64,000 bases of DNA, taken from NCBI RefSeq assembly GCF_014132155.1, contig NZ_BLJQ01000002.1:62001-126000 (forward strand). Direction: 5' to 3'. The notes below the pieces were generated by a model that worked only from the letters and a program-made list of their open reading frames with translations, did not search any database and was not told where the DNA came from. The position numbers were made by a program, and so were the translations under genes. How positions within the stretch are numbered: position 1 is the first letter of the stretch; the number at the start of each line of letters is the position of its first letter. The stretch comes from Gluconobacter sp. Gdi (lineage in GTDB: Bacteria; Pseudomonadota; Alphaproteobacteria; Acetobacterales; Acetobacteraceae). This document shows, piece by piece, positions 4,800 through 63,777 of this stretch.

Positions 4800-4815
4800 C
4801 GTTTCACGTGAAACA
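4800..4815. promoter_or_regulatory. parS centromere site 1
   Basis: CGTTTCACGTGAAACA matches 15 of 16 positions of the ParB-binding consensus TGTTTCACGTGAAACA. It lies in the gap just downstream of the dciA-like stop. Two more copies occur at 29718 and 32004, near parAB. Confidence 0.92.
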
Positions 4816-28843: not shown

Positions 28844-30139
28844 ATGAACCCCTTTTCTTCCTCGGACCCTCAGGTCATTTTTGCTCTGGCCACAGGCGCA
28901 GGCCGCGCAGCGATCGCCATCGTGCGCGCCAGCGGACCGGGAAGCGCCTCTATTCTCCAAAGCCTGTGCGGGTCCTTGCCCGAACCTCGGCGTGCCAGCC
29001 TCCGGAGCCTTCGCCATCAGGACGAGGTGATGGATCATGCTGTGGTGCTCTGGCTGCCAGGGCCAAAATCGTACACCGGAGAAGATGGGTTCGAATTACA
29101 CCTGCATGCAGGTCCAGCCGTTATTGCGTGTGTCGCTGACGCCCTGACGGATCTGGGCGCCCGTCCTGCAGAGCCGGGAGAATTCACAAAGCGCGCCGTG
29201 CAGAAGGGCCGACTGGATCTCCTGCAAGCAGAAGCCATCGCAGACCTTGTCGATTCCGAGACTGAAAGCCAGCGCAAACAGGCCCTGCAACAAGCCGATG
29301 GGGCGCTAAGTCGCCTTTATGATGGATGGGCTCAACGGTTAAGGCTTGTTCTGGCCCATCAGGAAGCTCTGATCGACTTTCCTGATGAAGACCTTCCCCC
29401 CGAGGTGGAACACACTCTTCTAGCCGAGATGTCCGCTCTACATGACGAGATGTCCGCTCATCTTCAGGACAACCGTGGAGAACTGATGCGACAGGGGCTG
29501 ACGGTTGTGATCGCAGGTTCGCCAAACGTTGGAAAATCAAGCCTTCTCAATGCGTTATCCGGATATGACGCAGCTATTGTCACTCACCGCGCAGGAACAA
29601 CACGGGATGCCATTGCGGTAGACTGGGTTCTGGATGGTGTTCGTCTTCGTCTGATCGACACCGCCGGGCTACGGGAAACTGAAGATGAAATTGAGGCGGA
29701 AGGTATTCGCCGGGCACTGTTTCACGTGAAACAGGCAGACGTTATTCTACACCTCATTGGGCCGGATGAAGCAGCCGATGCCTTGGCTTCCGATGAAATT
29801 GCAGTCCGAACAAAAATCGACATCGCACCAGCGCCCCCGAACATGCTAGGCATCAGCACCCAGACGGGTGAAGGTCTGTCAGAACTGCGAGCCTTCCTGA
29901 CCCAACGGGTCTCAGCGATGACGGCCAATGCCGGAGCGCCGCCTTTGACCCGTGCGCGCCACCGTGCAGGCATTCAGGAAGCTGTTACACATCTGGATCT
30001 CGCCCGAGGTGCCATGTGGCCCGAGTTGCGCGGAGAAGAATTACGCCTGTCCATGCAGGCTCTGGGACGTCTGACAGGACGTGTTGATGTTGAATCCCTG
30101 CTCGATGCAATTTTCGGGCAGTTCTGTATCGGGAAGTAA
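28844..30139 (+). CDS. mnmE: tRNA modification GTPase MnmE
   Basis: 431 residues. Partner of MnmG in making the carboxymethylaminomethyl group on wobble U34. N-terminal folate-binding domain ([70 protein letters not shown]), a G domain inserted in helices ([10 protein letters not shown] at 224-233, [25 protein letters not shown]), and the C-terminal CIGK, whose Cys is characteristic. AAGGGG precedes the start. A perfect parS lies within the coding sequence. It leads mnmE-mnmG-rsmG-parA-parB. Confidence 0.96.
29718..29733. promoter_or_regulatory. parS centromere site 2, inside mnmE
   Basis: TGTTTCACGTGAAACA is an exact match to the ParB-binding consensus. It is read by the ribosome as part of LFHVKQ in MnmE. 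It lies about 3.6 kb from parB. Confidence 0.95.
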
Positions 30140-30142
30140 GTT

Positions 30143-31999
30143 TTGAGCGATTTCGATGTCATCGTGATCGGCGGCGGCCATGCTGGTTGTGAAGCAGCAG
30201 CAGCGTCAGCGCGCTTTGGGGCCAAGACGCTCTTGCTGACGCACAAGCTCGAAACCATCGGGGCTATGTCTTGCAACCCAGCCATCGGCGGCATCGGCAA
30301 GGGACATCTCGTGCGTGAGATTGATGCACTGGATGGCCTGATGGGCAAAGCCGCTGATCGCGCTGGCATCCATTTCAAGCTGCTCAATCGCTCCAAGGGA
30401 CCGGCTGTCCATGGCCCGCGCGCGCAGGCAGATCGCTCCCTTTACAGAACGGCCATTCAAACCCTTCTGGCAGAAACACCTAATCTGACGATCATGGCTG
30501 GAGCTGTTGGAGATCTGATTGAAGAGAACGGGCATATTCGTGGTGTGATCTGCGAAGATGGTCGGTCTTTCCGCTGTGGCGCCGTGGTGCTCACGACGGG
30601 CACGTTCCTACGCGGTGTCATCCATGTCGGCCACGAACAGCAGCTTGCGGGGCGCATCGGTGAAGCGCCCGCTACCAAGCTGGGAGAACGGTTGGAAGCT
30701 CTGAAGCTTCGTATGGGCCGCCTCAAGACTGGCACACCACCACGCATCGCCCGCGACAGCATTGACTGGGAGAGCCTGCCTGAAGATCGGGGTGATGAAG
30801 TTCCAGAGCCGTTCAGCCCTTTGACGGGCAGCATCACCAACGCCCAGGTCTCATGCCGGATCAGCCAGACCACGCCGGAAACGCACCGGATCATTAACGA
30901 GAACCTGCACCGTTCAGCCATGTATGGTGGTGCGATTGCAGGCCGTGGGCCACGCTATTGCCCGTCTATTGAGGACAAGGTTGTCCGTTTCGCAGAGCGG
31001 TCTTCCCATCAGGTTTTTCTTGAGCCCGAAGCGCTCTCTGGAAATCCCGGGGGTGATCTTGTTTACCCGAACGGTATCAGCACCAGCCTTCCCGCTGATG
31101 TTCAGGCCCTCATGATCGCTTCGATGCCAGGGCTGGAAAAAGCGCGGATCGTCACAGCCGGATACGCTGTGGAGTATGATTACGTCGACCCGCGAGAACT
31201 GATGCCCTCACTTCAGTTGCGCAGCCTGCCTGGCCTCTACCTGGCGGGGCAGATCAACGGTACGACAGGCTATGAGGAAGCGGGCGCTCAGGGCCTTCTT
31301 GCTGGCCTGAATGCCGCTCGCGCGACCGCCGGAAACGATCCGCTCATTCTGGATCGGAGCGATGCTTATCTGGGTGTCATGATCGACGACCTGACATTGC
31401 ACGGCATCAGCGAGCCCTACCGCATGTTCACGTCACGGGCCGAGTATCGCTTAAGCCTCCGGGCTGACAATGCAGACCTAAGACTTACGCCAAAAGGCAT
31501 GGACGCTGGCTGCATTCTATCTGAACGCGCTGAAGCCTTTACCGACATGAAAACCCAGATTGACGCAGCCATGGCACTGGCAGCATCGACGACCTTCCTG
31601 CCCCAAGCCCTCAAGGACGTCGGGTTTGAGGTCTCTCTGGATGGGCGACGACGCAGCGTTCTGGATGTTCTGGCCAGCAACGGCGATCATTCGAAGGTAT
31701 TGGATCTAGCGCCATGGTTTGGTGCCCTGCCTCTCCGTATCCGCCGCCATGTGGAAACGGAAGCTCGCTACGGCGGCTATCTCCAGCGGCAGGATCGCGA
31801 GATCAAGCAGCTTGCATCTGAAAGCGCCATCGCTCTTCCGGACAATCTGGATTACAACGCTATCGGCGGCCTGAGCAGTGAGATGCGTGAGCGTTTTACT
31901 CAGGCACGACCAACCAGCTTTGCAGCTGCGCAACGTGTGCGAGGTGTAACCCCCGCTGCGCTGGTTGCCCTGCTGGCCCATGTAAGGACCCTGTCATGA
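30143..31999 (+). CDS. mnmG: tRNA uridine 5-carboxymethylaminomethyl modification enzyme MnmG
   Basis: 618 residues starting at TTG, three bases after the mnmE stop. FAD-binding [29 protein letters not shown] is at the N-terminus, with [33 protein letters not shown] and the catalytic-loop segment [18 protein letters not shown]. The C-terminal helical domain ([12 protein letters not shown] to [16 protein letters not shown] end) binds MnmE and tRNA. Length is typical. Its stop overlaps the rsmG start as ATGA. Confidence 0.97.
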
Positions 32000-32577
32000 C
32001 CACCGTTTCACGTGAAACGCAGGAGAGACTGGAACGCTTCGCAGACCTGCTCGTGCAATGGAATGCGAAGATCAATCTGGTCAGCCCAAAAGATCTGGGC
32101 CAATTGTGGCCACGCCATATTCAGGACAGCCTGCAACTCGCAGACATGATTCCTGCCGGTGCAACCATTACTGATCTGGGCTCAGGCGGAGGCTTTCCTG
32201 GCCTTATTCTGGCAATCGCAACAGATAATCCTGTGACGTTAATTGAGTCCGATCAGCGGAAATGTGCCTTCCTCCGGGAAGCTGGTCGCATCTGCGGAGC
32301 CAAAGTCACGGTCATTCCGAAGCGCATTGAAGCAGCAACCCCGCCAGAAGCCGACATCATTACAGCCCGTGCGCTGGCCCCGCTGGTCAAACTGCTCGGA
32401 TGGGCGCGTCCTTTGCTGAAAGAAAACGGATTTTGTCTGTTTCTCAAAGGCATAAAGGCGCAGGATGAGTTGACCGAGGCAAGCCGTGACTGGCACATGA
32501 CATCTACCATTCTTCCCAGCCGCACCGACCCCGGCGGAGCCATTATCAAGGTCAGTGATTTCAAGCGTGTCGTCTAA
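31996..32577 (+). CDS. rsmG: 16S rRNA (guanine-N7) methyltransferase RsmG
   Basis: 193 residues. Methylates G527 of 16S rRNA with S-adenosylmethionine. [17 protein letters not shown] is the SAM-binding motif I, and [23 protein letters not shown] the later conserved block. The N-terminal TVSRET is encoded by a parS site. It overlaps mnmG by four bases and parA by about 23 bases, so this is a tightly coupled operon. Confidence 0.95.
32004..32019. promoter_or_regulatory. parS centromere site 3, at the start of rsmG
   Basis: CGTTTCACGTGAAACG is a perfect palindrome and matches 14 of 16 consensus positions. It encodes the VSRET peptide at the N-terminus of RsmG, an arrangement seen in other bacteria with rsmG-parAB. 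Confidence 0.92.
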
Positions 32578-33367
32578 TTCCGTATCCCCCACCACTCGCA
32601 TCATTGCCGTCACCAACCAGAAGGGTGGTGTTGGCAAAACCACGACCACAATCAATCTAGCTGCTGCGCTGGCACGGAAACAGCGCGTCCTGCTCGTTGA
32701 TCTGGACCCTCAAGGCAATGCCTCGACCGGGTTGGGCATTGAGTATGATCAGCGGAATATTGGCACGTATGCCGCCCTGATGCAGGAAGCAGAGCCACAC
32801 GCTCTCGCACAGCCGACAGAGTTCGAAAATCTTTCGATTATCACCGCCAATAATGAGCTGGCTGGTGCTGAACTTGAGATGATCGCAGATGAGCGTCGTG
32901 AATATCGTCTAAGGGATGCTCTGCGCTCCCTTGAAGGCGACTACGATACCATCCTGATCGATTGCCCGCCCAGCCTTGGCCTTCTCACGCTCAATGCCCT
33001 CGTCGCTGCAGACAGCGTTCTCGTGCCGCTACAGTGTGAGTTCTTTGCGCTGGAAGGGATCAGTCAGCTTGTGCGCACCATTGACCGTGTGCGTCGTGCC
33101 TTCAATGCAGATCTGCATCTCGAAGGCATTGTGCTGACCATGTACGATCGGCGGAACAACCTTTCAGAACTCGTGGCACAGGATGCACGAGGTTTCTTTG
33201 GTGAGCAGGTTCTCGAAACGCTAATCCCGAGAAATATTCGTATTTCCGAAGCCCAGAGTCATGGCAGCCCGGTGCTGAACTATGATGCACGCTCCACAGG
33301 CGCAGTCGCCTATGTGGCACTGGCGGACGAACTTCTGAAGCGAACCGAGAACAGGACAAAGGCGTAA
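32555..33367 (+). CDS. parA: Chromosome partitioning ATPase ParA
   Basis: 270 residues. The deviant Walker A KGGVGKTT is at residues 23-30, followed by VLLVDLDPQGNASTGLG (A' motif) and LIDCPPSLGLLTLNALVAAD (Walker B). It drives movement of ParB-parS complexes away from the origin. The GTG at 32555 has AAGG just upstream; a GTG at 32567 is an alternative. It overlaps rsmG and is followed within six bases by parB. Confidence 0.96.
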   Translation: MISSVSSNSVSPTTRIIAVTNQKGGVGKTTTTINLAAALARKQRVLLVDLDPQGNASTGLGIEYDQRNIGTYAALMQEAEPHALAQPTEFENLSIITANNELAGAELEMIADERREYRLRDALRSLEGDYDTILIDCPPSLGLLTLNALVAADSVLVPLQCEFFALEGISQLVRTIDRVRRAFNADLHLEGIVLTMYDRRNNLSELVAQDARGFFGEQVLETLIPRNIRISEAQSHGSPVLNYDARSTGAVAYVALADELLKRTENRTKA

Positions 33368-33373
33368 GCTGTG

Positions 33374-34252
33374 ATGGCCAAAAAGGATACTTCTCCGCGC
33401 CTCGGTCGTGGTCTTGCCGCCCTTCTGGGCGATCAGGCTCCCCAGCTGGCCCGTGCTACGCGCGCCAATGCGCCTGTTCAGCAGCATACGTCCCTGCCTG
33501 TTGATGTGCTGGAGCCCAGCCCCTTTCAGCCCCGTCAGGACATGAACCCTGAGCGACTGGAAGAACTGGCCAATTCCATTCGGTCCCGCGGCGTTCTGCA
33601 GCCCCTCCTCGTCCGACCAGACCCGGCCAACCCTGAGCGATACCAGATCATCGCTGGCGAGCGGCGGTGGCGCGCCTCTCAGCTTGCCGGACTGCATAGT
33701 GTCCCCGTGCATGTGCGCCAGCTGGATGACACGGATGCCATGGCAGCCGCGCTTGTGGAAAACCTTCAGCGCGCCGATTTGAACCCGATCGAAGAAGCTG
33801 AAGGCCTTCAGCGGCTCATCACAGATTATACCCTGACGCAGGAAGAACTGGCCGGCGCCGTCGGAAAATCCCGACCTCACATCACCAATACCATGCGCTT
33901 GCTGAACCTGCCGCCAGAGATCCGGACCCATGTTCGCCGCGGTGAACTCTCAGCCGGACATGCCCGTGCCCTTCTGAGCCATCCAGACCCGATAGCTGCG
34001 GCCAAAACTGTTTTGGAAAAAGGACTGAATGTCCGCCAGACAGAAGCTCTTGTCGCTGAGAAATCAGAGAAGAAAGCCGTTCAGAAAAAGCGCCGGGACG
34101 CAGAGATTGTCCAGATTGAAGAAGATCTGGCTCTCCGGCTGGGACTTAAAGTCCACATCGCTTACGACGGAAAAAAGGGCGGCTCGCTAAAGATCGATTA
34201 CCGATCTCTTGAACAGTTTGAGAGCCTCATGCGTCTTCTCAACCGGGAATAA
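33374..34252 (+). CDS. parB: Chromosome partitioning protein ParB
   Basis: 292 residues. N-terminal basic RLGRGLAALLGD, then the CTP-binding and parS-clamp region (VDVLEPSPFQPRQDMNPERLEELANSIRSRGVLQPLLVRP, YQIIAGERRWRASQLAG, VENLQRADLNPIEEAEG), the helix-turn-helix (LTQEELAGAVGKSRPHITNTMRLLNLP) and a C-terminal dimerisation domain ending SLMRLLNRE. A GTG three bases earlier is also possible. It binds the three parS palindromes in this window. Confidence 0.96.
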   Translation: MAKKDTSPRLGRGLAALLGDQAPQLARATRANAPVQQHTSLPVDVLEPSPFQPRQDMNPERLEELANSIRSRGVLQPLLVRPDPANPERYQIIAGERRWRASQLAGLHSVPVHVRQLDDTDAMAAALVENLQRADLNPIEEAEGLQRLITDYTLTQEELAGAVGKSRPHITNTMRLLNLPPEIRTHVRRGELSAGHARALLSHPDPIAAAKTVLEKGLNVRQTEALVAEKSEKKAVQKKRRDAEIVQIEEDLALRLGLKVHIAYDGKKGGSLKIDYRSLEQFESLMRLLNRE

Positions 34253-48208: not shown

Positions 48209-48820
48209 TCAGGCTAGAATCACGTTCTCCTGACGCAGCTTCTCAAGAAGCGAAAGCCGTGGAAGCCCAAGGATAGCATCCTGATCGCCCGAAATTTTGG
48301 AAAAGAGCTGAATACCCAAGCCTTCCAGCCGATAAGCCCCTACGCAGGACAGTATCCTGTCTCCCTCTTCCTTTAGATAGAGCTCCAGAAATTCATCGGA
48401 AAAGGCGCGCATCGTCATTTGAGGAGTAGCGAGTGTCTCCCAGATTTTCTGTGTCCCCCGATACAAAACAACAGCCGTCTGAAGAATATGCGTGCGGTTT
48501 CGAAGGCATTTAAGATGCGTCTTTGCCTCATTGAGATCCTCCGGTTTCGCAAAGGCTGTTCCGTCCAGATCGAGGATCTGGTCAGCAGCGATAATCAGAC
48601 TGGTGTCAGACGATACATCGGCCGCAAGCCTCGCTTTGGCATCCGCGAGAGCCAAAGCCGTGTCTCCCAGAGATTTTCCTTCACTTTCACACTGCTGGCG
48701 CAAAGCCTCTTCATCCAGATCTACCGGTCGAACCTGAATGATCAGACCACTCTCTTCCAGAAGTACTCGCCGGGCACTCGAGCCACTTGCGAGGATTATG
48801 GAATTATTGAGCAAGGTCAT
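48209..48820 (-). CDS. maf: Maf-like nucleotide pyrophosphatase
   Basis: 203 residues. SIILASGSSARRVLLEESGL is the Maf phosphate-binding N-terminus; AADQILDLDGTAFAKPEDLNEAKTHLKCLRNRTHILQTAVVLYRG is the catalytic block with the usual Asp-Gln. Members hydrolyse non-canonical or methylated NTPs. I chose the ATG at 48820; the longer frame to 48853 enters the presumed origin. It transcribes away from the candidate origin, opposite to hemE. Confidence 0.93.
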   Translation of the reverse strand: MTLLNNSIILASGSSARRVLLEESGLIIQVRPVDLDEEALRQQCESEGKSLGDTALALADAKARLAADVSSDTSLIIAADQILDLDGTAFAKPEDLNEAKTHLKCLRNRTHILQTAVVLYRGTQKIWETLATPQMTMRAFSDEFLELYLKEEGDRILSCVGAYRLEGLGIQLFSKISGDQDAILGLPRLSLLEKLRQENVILA

Positions 48821-49173
48821 AAGATGCGACTCCAAACTATCGACGGCGAGCACGAGTACCAGTACTGCGTATGACCCGGTGAAAAGATTGTGTCAGTACT
48901 GGGGTACATGGGGACAGTACTTGAAGTTTGCGGGAAAGTACCGAGTACCGTGGATTGTTGGGTACGCCCCCAAATTTTGGGGGTTGTACACAGGGGGTCT
49001 GTGAGCAAATCGGGATAGAATCCTGCACCCCCTTGTCCACTGCGGGTTTTGCAGTTGTACACAGTGTGAGTAAGACGGGGTACATTTTTAGAGAGCCGGG
49101 TACCCCGGTATCCACAGGGATCATCCTATCCTCCAGGATTTCTTTCTTATTTCTTTCATGGTTAGTGAGCGGC
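48821..49173. other. Candidate chromosomal origin of replication (oriC) between maf and hemE
   Basis: A 353-base gap between divergent genes. DnaA-box-like nonamers (consensus TTATCCACA) are GTATCCACA at 49108-49116 (one mismatch), TTGTACACA at 48984-48992 and 49055-49063, TTGTCCACT at 49033-49041, and on the other strand TTACTCACA at 49065-49073. At least eight GTAC motifs lie between 48855 and 49105. CCCCCAAA-T-TTTGGGGG at 48967-48983 is a perfect palindrome. Plus-strand composition changes from C-rich to G-rich around here. hemE borders the origin in Caulobacter and other alphaproteobacteria. Open frames crossing it are not real genes. Confidence 0.72.
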
Positions 49174-50223
49174 ATGAATTCGGAAAACGCACCCCTCTCC
49201 CCATCCTCGAAACCGCTCCTGAGAGCTCTCAAGGGTGAAGCTGTCTGGCCCCCGCCGGTCTGGCTCATGCGGCAAGCAGGGCGTTACCTTCCCGAATTTC
49301 GTGCCATGCGTGACAAGGCCGACTTCCTGACGCGCTGCATGACTCCGGACATGGCTGAAGAACTGACCCTGCAGCCGATCCGCAGGTATGGAATGGACGG
49401 AGCAATTCTGTTCTCGGACATTCTCATTCTGCCCTGGGCAATGGGTCAGTCTCTTGAATTCATTGATGGTCGGGGCCCGGTTCTTGGCGCCATCCGTTCT
49501 CAGGCAGATCTGGAAAAACTTGATCCCAAGCGTGTACAGGAAGCCACGGCGCCTGTGCGGGAGACACTGTCGCGACTGAGTAAATCGCTCCCAGATGTCA
49601 CGACATTGCTCGGCTTTGCTGGTAGCCCCTTTACGGTCGCCTGTTACATGGTTGAGGGCGGCGGATCGCGGGATTTCGCCAATACCCGCAAAATGATGCA
49701 AACTGATCCAGCGCTGTTTGACCGTCTGATTGAAACTCTGACGATCAGCACGGCAGAGATGCTTTGCGGCCAGATTGAAGCCGGGGCCGAAGCTGTCATG
49801 CTCTTCGATTCCTGGGCTGGAATTCTTCCTCCCAATGCGTTCCGTCGGTATGTGATCGAACCCACCCGGCAGATCGTGCGTCATATCCGGGAGAAGCATC
49901 CGGGAACGCCGATTATCGGTTTTCCGCGCCTCGGAGGGATCATGATACGCGAATACGCAGAAAAGACCGGGATCAATACGCTGGCGCTCGATACAGTGGC
50001 TGATCCGGCGCAGATTGCGGAGCTGGTACCAAACGTGACGCTGCAAGGAAACATGGACCCGATGGTCCTGTTTTCTGGCGGTGAGGCCATGGTGCGTGAG
50101 GCTCAGGGTATCCGGGATGCGCTTCGCGGACGTTCTCATGTTTTTAATCTGGGACACGGCGTCATGCAGCACACGCCCCCTGAAAATATCGGTGCTCTGG
50201 TTGAAGCGGTGCGCGCAATATGA
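49174..50223 (+). CDS. hemE: Uroporphyrinogen decarboxylase
   Basis: 349 residues. It converts uroporphyrinogen III to coproporphyrinogen III in haem synthesis. WLMRQAGRYLPEFRAMR is the N-terminal signature with the conserved Arg pair, AILFSDILILPWAMG follows with catalytic Asp, then GFAGSPFTVACYMVEGGGSRDF and VFNLGHGVMQHTPPENI. The frame is open from 48928 through the presumed origin; the ATG at 49174 gives the normal length. It overlaps the HAD gene by four bases and leads hemE-HAD-hemJ. Confidence 0.96.
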   Translation: MNSENAPLSPSSKPLLRALKGEAVWPPPVWLMRQAGRYLPEFRAMRDKADFLTRCMTPDMAEELTLQPIRRYGMDGAILFSDILILPWAMGQSLEFIDGRGPVLGAIRSQADLEKLDPKRVQEATAPVRETLSRLSKSLPDVTTLLGFAGSPFTVACYMVEGGGSRDFANTRKMMQTDPALFDRLIETLTISTAEMLCGQIEAGAEAVMLFDSWAGILPPNAFRRYVIEPTRQIVRHIREKHPGTPIIGFPRLGGIMIREYAEKTGINTLALDTVADPAQIAELVPNVTLQGNMDPMVLFSGGEAMVREAQGIRDALRGRSHVFNLGHGVMQHTPPENIGALVEAVRAI

Positions 50224-57965: not shown

Positions 57966-59225
57966 ATGTCGATCATCAATTCTCTCAACACGGCTGTCAG
58001 TGGCCTCAATTCCCAGTCACATGCTTTCAGCGATCTCTCCAACAATATCGCGAATAGTCAAACGACAGGATATAAAGCTGCAACAACAAGCTTTGCCGAT
58101 TATGTGACGAGCAATGATCTGGCAAGCGACGGGGAGTCACTGAGCGACAGTGTGGCTGCGACAACCAGGCAGCATACTGACAATCAGGGTATGGTTGTTT
58201 CTTCCACAAATACGCTGGCGCTCGCAATTTCAGGCAACGGATTCTTCAACGTTGTCCAACCCACAGGAAGCACGACATCCAGCACAGCGCCGACGTTCAG
58301 CAGCCAGCAGTTTTATACGCGAAATGGTGACTTCTCACAAAATAACCAGGGATATCTGGTCAACACCTCGGGTTATTATCTGGAAGGGTATCAGGTGGGT
58401 TCAGAGGGCGCTTTGAGTAGCACTCTGTCACCTATAAAAATCTCTGATTCCGTTGCATTTCAGCCGACCAAGAGCACAACTGTTTCTCTGTCTGCTGCGA
58501 TTGGCAGCACCTCTGGGGCAGAAGGAACCAATACATCTACGGCAACAGCCTATGACAGTAAGGGAAATGCTCAGGAGGTGAGCCTGAACTGGAACCAATC
58601 CTCCACGGATCCCTTGGTTTGGACTGTCAGTAATTCAGCAGATTCGAGCAATTCAGCCACAGTGAAGTTTAACAGTGATGGTTCTCTGGCGTCTGTAAAT
58701 GGAGCGTCCCAGTCTACGGGTTCAGCGGCAACCTTTTCATATACGGGGCTGCCGCAGGATATGACTGTCAACCTGGGAACCATCGGGAGCACGTCCGGTG
58801 TGAGCCTGGCAACAGACAGCAGTAATTATAGCACCAATCCCACAATGACGACGGACAGCGTCACAAGCGGTACCTTCACGGGTCTGTCTATGCAAAGCGA
58901 CGGGTCTGTGATGGCGACATTTGATAATGGGCTTTCCCAGCTTCTTGCAAAAATACCGCTCTCGACGTTCGCAGATCCTAATGGACTCTCTGCCCAGAAC
59001 GGGCAGGCTTATACAGCAACGGCGTCATCTGGTGCACCGACAGTCAATGCAGTGAATACGAATGGGGCAGGGACGCTCAGCACCAGTTCCACTGAAAGCT
59101 CGACGACAGACCTGACCAGCGATCTTACCAAACTTATCGTCGCGCAGCAGGCTTATGGAGCGAATACAAAAATCGTGACCACTGCAAATCAGCTTCTGCA
59201 GACCACTTTGGCGATGATTCAGTAA
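57966..59225 (+). CDS. flgE: Flagellar hook protein
   Basis: 419 residues. N-terminal SIINSLNTAVSGLNSQSHAFSDLSNNIANSQTTGYKAATTSFADYV is the rod/hook signature, and the C-terminal LTSDLTKLIVAQQAYGANTKIVTTANQLLQTTLAMIQ forms the coiled D0. The middle is Ser/Thr-rich, as in exposed hook domains. GGAGT precedes the ATG at 57966. It leads flgE-flgK-flgL, the hook and hook-filament junction genes. Confidence 0.93.
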   Translation: MSIINSLNTAVSGLNSQSHAFSDLSNNIANSQTTGYKAATTSFADYVTSNDLASDGESLSDSVAATTRQHTDNQGMVVSSTNTLALAISGNGFFNVVQPTGSTTSSTAPTFSSQQFYTRNGDFSQNNQGYLVNTSGYYLEGYQVGSEGALSSTLSPIKISDSVAFQPTKSTTVSLSAAIGSTSGAEGTNTSTATAYDSKGNAQEVSLNWNQSSTDPLVWTVSNSADSSNSATVKFNSDGSLASVNGASQSTGSAATFSYTGLPQDMTVNLGTIGSTSGVSLATDSSNYSTNPTMTTDSVTSGTFTGLSMQSDGSVMATFDNGLSQLLAKIPLSTFADPNGLSAQNGQAYTATASSGAPTVNAVNTNGAGTLSTSSTESSTTDLTSDLTKLIVAQQAYGANTKIVTTANQLLQTTLAMIQ

Positions 59226-59250
59226 GACCGGGTGAGGGGAACTCTATATC

Positions 59251-60774
59251 ATGGGGCTGACTGATTCACTTTCAATCGCCGTCTCTGGCTTGCAGGCCGT
59301 CCAGTATGGAATGTCTACGGCTTCCCAGAACGTGGCCAATGCGTCTACTGCAGGTTACATCAAAGAAGTCGCAAACGTTCAGTCTGTCGTAAATGACGGG
59401 ACGGGCGGCGGCGTACGACGCGCAGCAACCAGTCTGGCTACAAACGCACATATCCAGACTGCTTTATATTCCCAGAATTCAGATGTTTCCCAATATACGA
59501 CAACAAGCAACGCGCTCTCTGTCGTCACGGCTCTACAAGGTTCAACCTCTGCAGATTCTGGTAGCAGCGGGACACTTTCTGATCAGTTGGGAAATCTTCA
59601 GTCAGCTCTTATTTCTTTGACCAGCTCCGCGTCCAGTTCGACCACCCAGAGCACAGTTATTTCTGCGGCCAATAGTTTTACCCAGTCGTTGAACACTCTT
59701 GCAGACACTGTGCAGGAGCAACGTCAGAACGCACAGGATAGTGTTGTCTCGTCAGTTTCGGATATCAATACCAACCTGACGACTATTGGCTCTTTGTCTA
59801 CCAAGATCATGGCTCTTAAAGGGCAAGGGCTCGATACTGCGGATATTGAAAATCAGCGCTTTACGGCCTTGTCATCGCTCTCCAGTGAATTGGGTGTGAA
59901 TTGGAAGGTTTCCTCCAATGGAGACATGTCCATTACCACGGAAGACGGTGTCACGCTCCCTACACACAATACGTCTTCGGGTTCAGCAGATGCCATTTCG
60001 AGCACGTGGCCTTTGACGACAGCCTCAGCGCAAATTTCAACCAGTATGAGCTACCCGGGTAACTCCGACGCTAATGCGATTCCAGCAATTACGCTGAACG
60101 GAAAAGATATTACTGGTCATCTGACGGGTGGAAGCCTCGGAGCTGATATAACGCTGCGAGATATCACGCTCCCAACGATGCAAGCGCAATTTGACTCTCT
60201 AGCCTATACCGTAGCCAGCCGCTTCGATGCGCAGGGCATGTCTTTATTTACAACATCAAGTGGCAATATTCCCGATGCGTCCCAGACGTCCATTGTGCCG
60301 CGGGGAAGCGCTGGTTTTGCTCAGAATATTCAGGTTTCCCAGTCCTATCAGGACGATCCATCGCTTCTTGTATCTGGTGAGACCGCAAGTAGCAGTGTTG
60401 TCCAGAACATTCTGTCTTATGCGTTTGGAACCACTCAATCAGATGGCACAGGACAAGTAGCCGCCCCTACCAATAATTTAGGTGTGACGGGGAAATTGTC
60501 TACCGGATATAGTGGAAGTCAAAGTCTTGTGGCTCTTGCGACGTCTTTGACAGCCAACCAGGCCGCGACAGCTAATAACGCAAGTAGCAGTCTTTCTTTT
60601 GCACAAACAACGCAGACCAATCTCTCTTCAAGCCTGGCAGGAACATCAACTGTCTCTGTCGATACTGAAATGGCAAATATCGTTACACTACAGAACGCCT
60701 ATTCAGCCAATGCGAAAGTTATTTCTTCCGTACAGTCCATGTTCACCGCCCTTTTAAACGCTGTTGGAAGCTGA
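59251..60774 (+). CDS. flgK: Flagellar hook-associated protein 1
   Basis: 507 residues, shorter than enteric FlgK. GLTDSLSIAVSGLQAVQYGMSTASQNVANASTAGYIKEVANVQS is the N-terminal signature; C-terminal SVDTEMANIVTLQNAYSANAKVISSVQSMFTALLNAVGS forms the coiled D0. It joins the hook to the filament. Ser/Thr-rich like flgE. The gene is 25 bases after flgE and two bases before flgL. Confidence 0.92.
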   Translation: MGLTDSLSIAVSGLQAVQYGMSTASQNVANASTAGYIKEVANVQSVVNDGTGGGVRRAATSLATNAHIQTALYSQNSDVSQYTTTSNALSVVTALQGSTSADSGSSGTLSDQLGNLQSALISLTSSASSSTTQSTVISAANSFTQSLNTLADTVQEQRQNAQDSVVSSVSDINTNLTTIGSLSTKIMALKGQGLDTADIENQRFTALSSLSSELGVNWKVSSNGDMSITTEDGVTLPTHNTSSGSADAISSTWPLTTASAQISTSMSYPGNSDANAIPAITLNGKDITGHLTGGSLGADITLRDITLPTMQAQFDSLAYTVASRFDAQGMSLFTTSSGNIPDASQTSIVPRGSAGFAQNIQVSQSYQDDPSLLVSGETASSSVVQNILSYAFGTTQSDGTGQVAAPTNNLGVTGKLSTGYSGSQSLVALATSLTANQAATANNASSSLSFAQTTQTNLSSSLAGTSTVSVDTEMANIVTLQNAYSANAKVISSVQSMFTALLNAVGS

Positions 60775-60776
60775 TT

Positions 60777-61844
60777 ATGACTGGAATTACGGCATCTTTT
60801 GGTTATAGCGGATTATCGAATCAACAGACGCTAAACCTGGCTTCGTTATCCCAGATAAAAGATAATCTTCAGGAACAAGCTTCTACGGGCGTGAAATCCA
60901 GCAACTACGCCCAGCTTGGAGACACACGTGCGCAGGCGCTGGCGCTTCAGCCTGCAATCACTCAGGTTTCGTCCTGGAACTCCAACGTGACCATGGCACA
61001 AAACAGATTAACGGTCACGCAGAGTGCAGTCAGCCAAATTTCGACGATCGCAGATAATTTGAATGAGACACTTTCAACCCTTGTTGGGAATGTTTCCTCA
61101 ACGTCCATAAGCTCAGCGTCCGAGCAGGCTAAATCAGATTTATTATCCTTGGGCAACCTGCTGAACATGCAGGAAGGCGGAAGTTATATTTTTGCAGGGT
61201 TACAGTCTTCTACTGCCCCCGTAAGCACCATTCTAACTAACTCTAATCTCTCGTCTTCTATACAGGAAGCTGTACAAAGCATGGGAAATGGTGGTGCCTC
61301 AGATGTTCTGTCTGAGACGCTTTCTCTGGCGGGACAAACTAGCCAAAATCAACCGTTTTCCGCAGCGCTTTCGACTAATCCGGTCACAGCATCCCAGCAA
61401 AACCTGAAAATTACTGTTGGGAGTAATCAAACGGTCTCCGCAGGTATCGTTGCGACACAAGGAAGCACTTCTTCGAAAACATCAACAGGCTCACCAATCC
61501 GGGATCTCATACGAAACCTGATGGTGGTTGCTGCTCTTGGTTCTGATGATGCAGGGACCGCAGATCATACACAGCTGGTTCAAGGATTACAGACGACGAA
61601 TGCCGGTGTCATCGAAGGGCTATCCGATATCAGTGGGGGCCTTGGAATACAGCAGAACAGCTTGACCAGTCAGAGTACGATGCTGGCACAGATGAAAGCC
61701 GCTCTGACCACCCAGCTTGGAACCGCAAAAGATGCAGATCTGGCGCAGGTTTCCGTCCAATTGAATGATACCAGCAATCAACTCCAGGCATCATATTCCA
61801 TTATCGCAAATATGAAGGGTATGACGCTTGCAAGTTATCTCTGA
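60777..61844 (+). CDS. flgL: Flagellar hook-associated protein 3
   Basis: 355 residues. Flagellin-like ends: GITASFGYSGLSNQQTLNLASLSQIKDNLQEQASTGVKSSNYAQLGDTRAQALALQPAI at the N-terminus and DADLAQVSVQLNDTSNQLQASYSIIANMKGMTLASYL at the C-terminus. It is the second junction protein between FlgK and flagellin. It follows flgK with a two-base gap, so it is co-translated. Confidence 0.9.
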   Translation: MTGITASFGYSGLSNQQTLNLASLSQIKDNLQEQASTGVKSSNYAQLGDTRAQALALQPAITQVSSWNSNVTMAQNRLTVTQSAVSQISTIADNLNETLSTLVGNVSSTSISSASEQAKSDLLSLGNLLNMQEGGSYIFAGLQSSTAPVSTILTNSNLSSSIQEAVQSMGNGGASDVLSETLSLAGQTSQNQPFSAALSTNPVTASQQNLKITVGSNQTVSAGIVATQGSTSSKTSTGSPIRDLIRNLMVVAALGSDDAGTADHTQLVQGLQTTNAGVIEGLSDISGGLGIQQNSLTSQSTMLAQMKAALTTQLGTAKDADLAQVSVQLNDTSNQLQASYSIIANMKGMTLASYL

Positions 61845-61911
61845 ACTCTGTTGAAAAATTGACCCTGACGTCGCATATCTTCGTTACTTTCCTAAGAGGA
61901 GATTGGTGACG

Positions 61912-63777
61912 ATGAGTGCAACGCAAGGCCAGCCGGAACAGCATGAATTCAGTGCAGAGGTGGGGCGCCTGCTCGATCTTGTCGTGCACGCGCTTTATTC
62001 GGATCGAGAGATTTTTCTGCGTGAACTTGTTGCGAACGCAGCAGATGCGACGGACAAACGTCGGTTTGAAGGGCTGACGAATTCTGCTCTCGCTCTTCCA
62101 GAAAATGCGTCAATTCGTATTGCTCCGGAAAAAGACAAGAAAGAGTTGGTCATTTCTGACGATGGCGTGGGAATGACACATGATGAACTGGCTCAAAATC
62201 TAGGTACGATTGCCCGTTCAGGCACACGCGCTTTCGGTGAAAAACTAAACGCAGCCAAAGCTGAAGATCGCCCAAGTCTGATTGGTCAGTTTGGTGTTGG
62301 GTTCTACGCGGCGTTCATGGTTGCCGACAGGGTGGATGTGACGTCCCGCAAGGCTGGGGCAGACGAGGCCTGGACTTGGTCTTCAGACGGGAAGGGCGCT
62401 TTTACCCTGACGCCTTCCACCCGCTCTACGCCTGGCACTGACATTGTTCTGCATATGAAAAGTGATGCGGAAGAGTTTCTGGATAGCTGGCGTCTTCGGT
62501 CGATTATCCGCAAATGGGCCGACCATATTTCCTGGCCGATCACCCTGCGTGAGGTTAGTGAAGACGGAACAGTCGAAGAAAAAGCTGCCAACGAAGGAAC
62601 AGCCTTGTGGCGCAAGCCGAAGGCTGAAATTACGCCTGAGCAATATACGGAATTCTACAGGCACATCGCGCGTGCCTTTGATGAGCCTTATGCAACTATG
62701 CACTGGCATGCAGAAGGGACGACAGAGTTCACAGCCCTTCTGTTTCTCCCCAGCGCTCGACCATTTGATTTCATGGAACAGTCTAGGGAAAGCAAGATTC
62801 ACCTGCATGTTCGCCGCATGTTCATCACGGACGATGCAGATCTGCTTCCCAATTGGATGCGCTTTGTCCAAGGCGTAGTCGATACGGAAGATCTTCCGCT
62901 CAATGTCTCTCGTGAAATGCTGCAGGCAACCCCAGTTCTTGCTCGTATTCGCAAGGCTGTCACGAAACGGGTTCTGACAGAGATTAAAACTCGGGCCAAA
63001 GATGCAGATGCTGGATTTAACGCATTTTGGGAAAACTTTGGAGCTGTTCTGAAAGAAGGTTTGTGGGAAGATAGCGAACACCGTCAGGAAATTGCTGGTT
63101 TCGCACGGTTCCATACCACTCATGATGACAATCTAACGACGCTTGATGATTATATCTCGCGCATGAAGGATGGACAGGACGTTATCTACTTCCTGACGGG
63201 CGATAACCTTGAGGCTTTGAAGGCATCCGCACAGTTGGAGGGCTTCCGAGCCCGTGGACTGGAGGTTCTTCTCCTCGCGGATCCGGTAGATGCATTCTGG
63301 CCAGGGCGACTGCATTCATACAACGACAAAATTTTGCGGTCAGTCGTGTATTCTCATGGAGATCTTGAGAAGTTCCCTACGGACAGTGAGGAAACAGTCG
63401 AGGCAGCCAATGTAGACACCCTTGTTCCTGCGTTGAAGGAGGCTTTGGGTGATGCAGTGAAAGATGTTCGTAGTACGGTTCGTCTTACGGATAGCGCGGT
63501 CGTCATGACTTCTGAGGGCGGACCAGATCTGGCCATGCAGAGGTTAATGCGCCGGTCAGGCCAGGCTCTTCCAGAAACACTGCCCATTTTGGAAATTAAT
63601 CCTCGTCACCCTTTGATCAAAGCTTTGGCTCAGCGTGTCGAGAATAAAGAAAACATTCAGGATCTTGCACGCGTGCTGTTGGATTTGGCTCGTGTTCAGG
63701 AAGGTGAACCTTTGCCAGACCCGACAGGTTTTGCCCGGCTGCTTGCAAAGCTGCTTGCTGGTACTTCTGCTACTTAA
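61912..63777 (+). CDS. htpG: Chaperone HtpG (Hsp90)
   Basis: 621 residues from the ATG at 61912. AGGAG lies ten bases before it, but only four before a GTG at 61906, so that start is possible. N-terminal GHKL ATPase: [81 protein letters not shown]. Middle domain with [38 protein letters not shown] and a short C-terminal dimer domain. It folds client proteins under stress. A terminator follows. Confidence 0.95.

Follow-up and report, generated by a model that had tools for sequence, protein, structure and literature searches.

Control of chromosomal origins by DNA methylation is best known for Dam and its word GATC in gammaproteobacteria, while a position beside hemE is a known arrangement for the origins of Caulobacter and other alphaproteobacteria. 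The E. coli oriC is credited with 11 GATC sites (PMC13337833), oriI and oriII of Vibrio cholerae are both described as having a high GATC density, with an essential dam gene (PMC2865523), and several GANTC motifs are reported for the Caulobacter origin (PMC3973325). The word GTAC is methylated by M.RsaI of Rhodobacter blasticus 28/5, which makes N4-methylcytosine (m4C) in it (PMC6256690). Two further papers describe, for Helicobacter, a GTAC enzyme of the gamma class, which is not the class of the enzyme treated below (PMC3936762), and discuss orphan enzymes for CTAG and GATC in haloarchaea (PMC6471742). Among open-licence papers, the titles and abstract openings mentioned no GTAC cluster in an origin and no GTAC methyltransferase in acetic acid bacteria.

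The locus described here lies in a stretch of 64,000 nucleotides (the window; G000:C2:62001-126000) of a 3.55-Mb Gluconobacter genome in 178 contigs, the HemE of which shares 98% identity with its Gluconobacter cerinus counterpart. It resembles the E. coli oriC/Dam/SeqA system in its dense 4-bp palindromic word, 12 GTAC in 248 bp being found here and 11 GATC there, and in that no restriction partner was seen beside the gene of the methyltransferase concerned, which adjoins mltA. It differs in that the word is GTAC rather than GATC and the enzyme of the RsaI kind, with m4C probably replacing m6A as the mark. Compared with the origins of V. cholerae, the word, the enzyme and the bacterial class are all different. 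The Caulobacter CcrM-type origin is alike in lying beside hemE, and a CcrM-like protein is also present in the window genome, but the enriched word is GTAC and not GANTC. Neither GANTC nor GATC was enriched upstream of hemE in this genome, and both were rejected as the word of this locus.

The maf-hemE gap as the probable origin of replication

The gap (48821..49173) is flanked by two divergent genes, maf (Pfam Maf; minus strand, 48209..48853, with a GTG start at 48853 or an ATG start at 48820) and hemE (uroporphyrinogen decarboxylase; plus strand, 49174..50223). The initial annotation had put it forward as a candidate chromosomal origin on the strength of DnaA-box-like nonamers, GTAC motifs, a palindrome and G-C skew, all of which proved real when recounted. 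The skew in particular bore the proposal out: within the window, cumulative G-C skew reaches its minimum at 48,786, which is 35 bp before the left edge of the gap, and along the 670-kb contig (20 sampled stretches plus eight window blocks; blocks of 7-8 kb) the skew changes sign at the gap, being negative in 9 of 9 blocks to its left and positive in 19 of 19 from the gap block rightward. The seven lines that had been counted by hand were exact in every case (7/7). At the finer scale of 2-kb blocks, 23 of the 24 left of 48,000 were negative and 5 of the 8 on the right side positive, the exceptions on the right being 48-50 kb (-0.004) and 58-62 kb. The long frames of window positions 58001-62000, where skew is locally negative on the positive side, resemble flagellar hook or hook-associated proteins, as read from their translations.

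Three further genomes were consistent with an origin near hemE. In G066 the interval in which the skew changes sign (0.89-1.02 Mb) includes hemE (0.949 Mb); in G025 the minus-to-plus change falls at 1.73-1.85 Mb and hemE at 1.875 Mb, an inexact distance of about 15-145 kb; and in G149, where hemE is near the contig end, the skew fits an origin at hemE if the contig is circular, 2 of the 10 stretches being near zero. The neighbourhood of partition genes and sites, to which attention had also been drawn, was found as well. A perfect parS (TGTTTCACGTGAAACA) lies at 29718..29733 on the plus strand, with weaker sites at 4800 (1 mismatch) and 32004 (2 mismatches), and parA (32555-33367) and parB (33371-34252), on the plus strand at 32555..34252, close a TrmE-GidA-GidB-ParA-ParB gene order that occupies 28844-34252; the perfect parS and parAB are thus placed 15-19 kb from the gap. 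The skew minimum, adjacency to hemE and the parAB/parS neighbourhood, all to be expected of an oriC, therefore occur together here.

The gap also contains exactly five nonamers with at most two mismatches to the DnaA box TTATCCACA, the number originally claimed, and so has the box cluster of an oriC. Dinucleotide shuffles of the gap gave a mean of 1.08 such nonamers, and five or more in only 1 of 500. Conservation was assessed in an alignment of 14 species in which the G. cerinus type strain represents the window genome. Two of the boxes are TTGTACACA on the plus strand and enclose a GTAC: that at 48984..48992 (GTAC site 9, 48986) has all 9 of its 9 letters invariant in the 14 species, and that at 49055..49063 (site 10, 49057) has TGTACAC invariant. 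The box TTGTCCACT (49033..49041, plus strand) is not conserved, and TTACTCACA lies on the minus strand at 49065..49073. No perfect box occurs, as had been stated; the best, and the only one with a single mismatch, is GTATCCACA (49108..49116, plus strand), in which the final four letters, CACA, are invariant in the 14 species. The 17-base palindrome of the initial annotation was found at 48967..48983 (CCCCCAAATTTTGGGGG, that is CCCCCAAA-T-TTTGGGGG), its letters not being kept in relatives. A T-rich stretch before hemE (49138..49168), with a T-rich run at the same place in the aligned species, is a candidate unwinding element.

The window does not contain dnaA, as had been noted; the gene is on another contig (G000:C3:193251). 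In the 15 of 19 genomes with both genes on one chromosome-sized contig, all of them Acetobacteraceae, dnaA and hemE were separated by 33-50% of the replicon in 13, the exceptions being G143 (5%) and G121 (19%), and this is a further difference from the Caulobacter CcrM-type origin. The plus-to-minus skew change of G025 (0.54-0.70 Mb) surrounds dnaA (0.602 Mb); in G149 it falls past dnaA, by about 0.3-0.5 Mb, at ~1.6-1.8 Mb, and G066 shows no sharp change. In the latter two genomes dnaA is terminus-side, not at the terminus. Two genome papers place oriC elsewhere: near dnaA in Acetobacter pasteurianus 386B (PMC3751514), and, in A. cerevisiae KSO5, where the skew peaks next to dnaA, with only 51 kb between it and dif (PMC13209655). 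Since dnaA is far from the hemE-side origin in other Acetobacteraceae genomes, these dnaA-based calls in Acetobacter look doubtful.

Taken together, the skew change, the proximity of parS and parAB, the deep conservation among acetic acid bacteria and the persistence of the GTAC cluster away from hemE (both described below) indicate that the maf-hemE gap is very probably the oriC of Gluconobacter. Lying as it does between divergent genes, the gap might have been a promoter or regulatory region for maf and hemE and no origin at all, but a skew minimum and sign change would not be expected at such a region, nor would the cluster be expected to survive unlinked from hemE, as it does in three genomes; we regard this explanation as highly improbable.

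A conserved GTAC cluster

GTAC is the most informative feature of the gap, and it points to a methyltransferase encoded outside the window. At least eight motifs had been claimed; the actual count is 12, at 48856-49103, a span of 248 bp. Elsewhere in the genome, a 203-kb sample gave a background of 0.31 GTAC per 250 bp, with no more than 4 in any 250 bp, and 500 shuffles of the gap gave a mean of 2.1 and a maximum of 6. The dense word of a methylation-sequestered oriC is therefore present, with GTAC as the presumed methylation word. When the whole genome was scanned for spaced GTAC triples, a single additional dense spot emerged, a 69-bp stretch preceding aat that contains five GTAC (G000:C1:325468-325536; aat assigned by Pfam). 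This was rejected as a conserved partner site, since of 16 genomes examined only the window genome and G446 had four or more GTAC within 200 bp upstream of aat.

Nine GTACs could be aligned across the 14 species, eight of them present in 14/14 and the ninth in 12/14. Sites 3-5 (48896, 48904 and 48917; 48896..48920), which form the block AGTACTGGGGTACATGGGGAC.GTAC, are kept in 12, 14 and 14 species, respectively. Sites 6-7 (48938 and 48945; 48938..48948), in the block GTACCGAGTACC followed by CGTGGAT, are both kept in 14/14, as are sites 11-12 (49080 and 49100; 49080..49103), in the block GGTACRTTT-N10-GGGTACC. Sites 1-2 (48856 and 48862; 48856..48865) and site 8 (48962..48965) are not in the set shared by half or more of the species. 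Conservation was 0.99 in the GTAC core, 0.88 one base out and ~0.75 at 4-6 bases out; the flanks are thus conserved too, and GTACs sit in varied contexts (AGTACT, GGTACC, TGTACA).

When the 450 bp before hemE were inspected at 80 named loci, 66 had 11-16 GTAC, two had 6-7 and 12 had 0-2, the last group comprising Bombella, Parasaccharibacter, Saccharibacter and two further Acetobacteraceae. In the low-GTAC hemE genomes that were scanned further (G032, G118 and G101) the cluster was present on the same contig, 19-26 kb from hemE. The block of sites 11-12 was also used as a signature of the origin. When no more than one mismatch was allowed, it was found, among 147 relatives, in 41 genomes (the window genome included), all of them among the 59 that carry the methyltransferase described below; one genome of another family, without the enzyme, has it as well. 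Two-mismatch matches were left uncounted, being as scattered as those of a reversed-pattern control. Acetic acid bacteria share the GTAC cluster as a conserved element.

The location beside hemE, being a known alphaproteobacterial arrangement, would also suit an ordinary origin of this type in which the GTAC cluster had a minor role, either as a shield from GTAC-cutting restriction or as a relic. A relic would not keep eight sites in 14/14 species, nor stay clustered once parted from hemE, and avoidance of restriction would be expected to favour fewer sites, not more; a minor role is accordingly judged improbable.

A methyltransferase beside mltA, probably of the M.RsaI kind

The genome of the window was searched for methyltransferases of the PF01555 family. 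Matches comprised a CcrM-like protein encoded beside the ribonuclease HII gene (a full-length match to the Caulobacter CcrM model, with a score below the curated cut-off), one protein encoded beside mltA on an 858-kb contig, and more on a 35-kb contig. The mltA-side match was followed. Its gene (G000:C1:601324-602151) is not part of the window; it is flanked by mltA and a di-haem cytochrome c peroxidase gene, and an mltA-like gene adjoins the enzyme at 37 of 46 loci. The protein carries the SPPY motif, which is that of m4C enzymes. Its tblastn relatives in phages include an enzyme of Synechococcus phage ACG-2014j that is 42% identical and whose gene directly follows, and overlaps, one annotated R.RsaI; in the same comparison the genome's own CcrM-like protein was only 24% identical. 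In phages Syn19 and Syn2, too, an R.RsaI-related gene adjoins the enzyme. Between the catalytic motifs, most of the sequence is common to the acetic acid bacteria, an enzyme-bearing outgroup, Paracoccus and the phage. The name R.RsaI is that of the phage annotation, the protein having no family match in Pfam or NCBIfam; a search of a plasmid collection for a homologue gave no match, and no restriction gene was seen among the genes adjacent to the enzyme in the window genome. The mltA-side enzyme is thus close to RsaI-linked members of PF01555, the comparator being the phage enzyme beside R.RsaI. It differs from M.RsaI and the phage enzymes in that no adjacent restriction gene was seen, in its mltA neighbour and in its spread across one bacterial family. 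Because of the homology to the RsaI-linked phage enzymes and the specificity of M.RsaI, GTAC is its likely word, and the enzyme probably methylates it as N4-methylcytosine.

At a threshold of E 1e-40 the enzyme was found in only three of 289 genomes across the class, all Acetobacteraceae and one of them the window genome. Among 150 genomes of the family there were 71 strong and five weak matches. HemE was matched in 145 of these, and 141 were usable, having at least 600 bases to examine. At least five GTAC per 300 bp upstream of hemE were present in 35 of the 141, and all 35 had a strong enzyme match, whereas the 73 without one (68 with none, five weak) yielded 0 clusters and a maximum of 4 GTAC. 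When 16 palindromic tetramers were compared, a sizeable split was seen for GTAC alone (35/68 vs 0/73). The other 33 of the 68 usable enzyme bearers had fewer than five GTAC per 300 bp upstream of hemE, and in six clusterless bearers no comparable cluster was found genome-wide, the densest being five GTAC in a 52-bp repeat of G143; the enzyme can therefore exist without the cluster. Stop codons flagged in the G070 and G122 enzymes were rejected as signs of decay, since they are the ends of the reading frames.

Both enzyme and cluster are missing from G066, G029 and G116, and genome-wide G066 and G029 have one GTAC triple each. The DnaA proteins of these two are extremely diverged (end branches of 3.2 and about 10 changes per column), too much so for placement in a DnaA tree, and a HemE tree was used. 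In it the three genomes fall on long branches inside the GTAC-bearing clade. Keeping the 36 core bearers together was rejected, though only at AU p 0.024 and with the long branches calling for caution, and the branch support that joins the three was weak (82/47). The 540 bp examined in G066 contain 14 perfect TTATCCACA, where the 35 cluster bearers average 0.09. Five other genomes without the enzyme (G059, G036, G121, G102 and G003) have 9-13 GANTC, the CcrM word, at the origin position. As only four independent pairs are available for co-occurrence, of which 1-2 go in the expected direction and 0 against, significance is unreachable and the statistics are weak; the case is carried by the enzyme family and by motif specificity.

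Proposed marking of the origin by GTAC methylation

We propose, with a probability of roughly 0.6, that the gap is an oriC whose GTACs are methylated by the M.RsaI-kind enzyme and at which hemimethylation limits initiation. The resident methyltransferase would put N4-methylcytosine on the origin GTACs, and once the fork had left oriC the dense cluster would become hemimethylated. This would probably alter the binding of DnaA or of a putative reader protein, DnaA being a possible reader because two of its boxes are TTGTACACA with GTAC inside; we know of no SeqA-like reader for a GTAC origin. The altered binding would then limit origins to one firing per cycle, as Dam and SeqA do with GATC in E. 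coli, so that GTAC methylation would mark the age of the origin as GATC does there. Methylation, DnaA binding, initiation control and the reader are, at the GTAC origin, all inferred. Against the proposal stand the 33 of 68 enzyme bearers without a cluster, the presence of a CcrM-like enzyme in the same genome, and the situation at dnaA. The E. coli dnaA promoter is GATC-rich, according to the paper cited above (PMC13337833), whereas here no GTAC cluster was found at dnaA, the own locus having 1 GTAC in 3.2 kb and the 19 genomes no more than 3 per 300 bp. The dnaA promoter was therefore rejected as a GTAC target.

The main rival also takes the gap to be oriC, with GTAC as the core of initiator sites (DnaA boxes in altered form, or the targets of some other protein that binds the origin) and the methyltransferase as an inherited bystander. 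It would account for the two GTACs inside DnaA-box-like TTGTACACA, for the conservation of the flanks, for the perfect boxes found in G066 where the GTACs are gone, and for the 33 of 68 genomes in which the enzyme occurs but the cluster does not. It does less well with the variety of contexts in which the GTACs occur, and membership of the enzyme in an RsaI-linked family would not be needed of a bystander. In addition, a 29-residue helix-turn-helix stretch of DnaA is identical in six bearers (the window genome included) and in the non-bearers G102 and G143, and this speaks against a changed DnaA specificity as the cause, as far as can be judged from the protein sequences; in the other 11 of the 19 genomes the stretch differs somewhat, in bearers and non-bearers alike. 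On balance we consider initiator sites with a bystander enzyme to be unlikely, although not negligibly so.

A broader form of the methylation proposal, on which we are evenly divided, is that these bacteria have an independently evolved licensing mark, an RsaI-type m4C on an array of ~12 GTAC whose hemimethylated form DnaA or a putative reader would recognise, and that the origin word has changed within the family: acetic acid bacteria would use GTAC and some relatives GANTC, and genomes that lost the enzyme would have reverted to plain perfect DnaA boxes. Were this true, methylation control of the origin would have evolved again, using a different word, a different family of enzymes and probably a different modified base, and its gain, switch and loss within a single family would offer natural experiments. 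In practical terms, the GTAC signature locates what is likely to be the true origin in industrial acetic acid bacteria, at odds with the oriC near dnaA given in the two genome papers. The origin of these bacteria would, if the proposal is correct, be an unrelated counterpart of the GATC-marked origin of E. coli.
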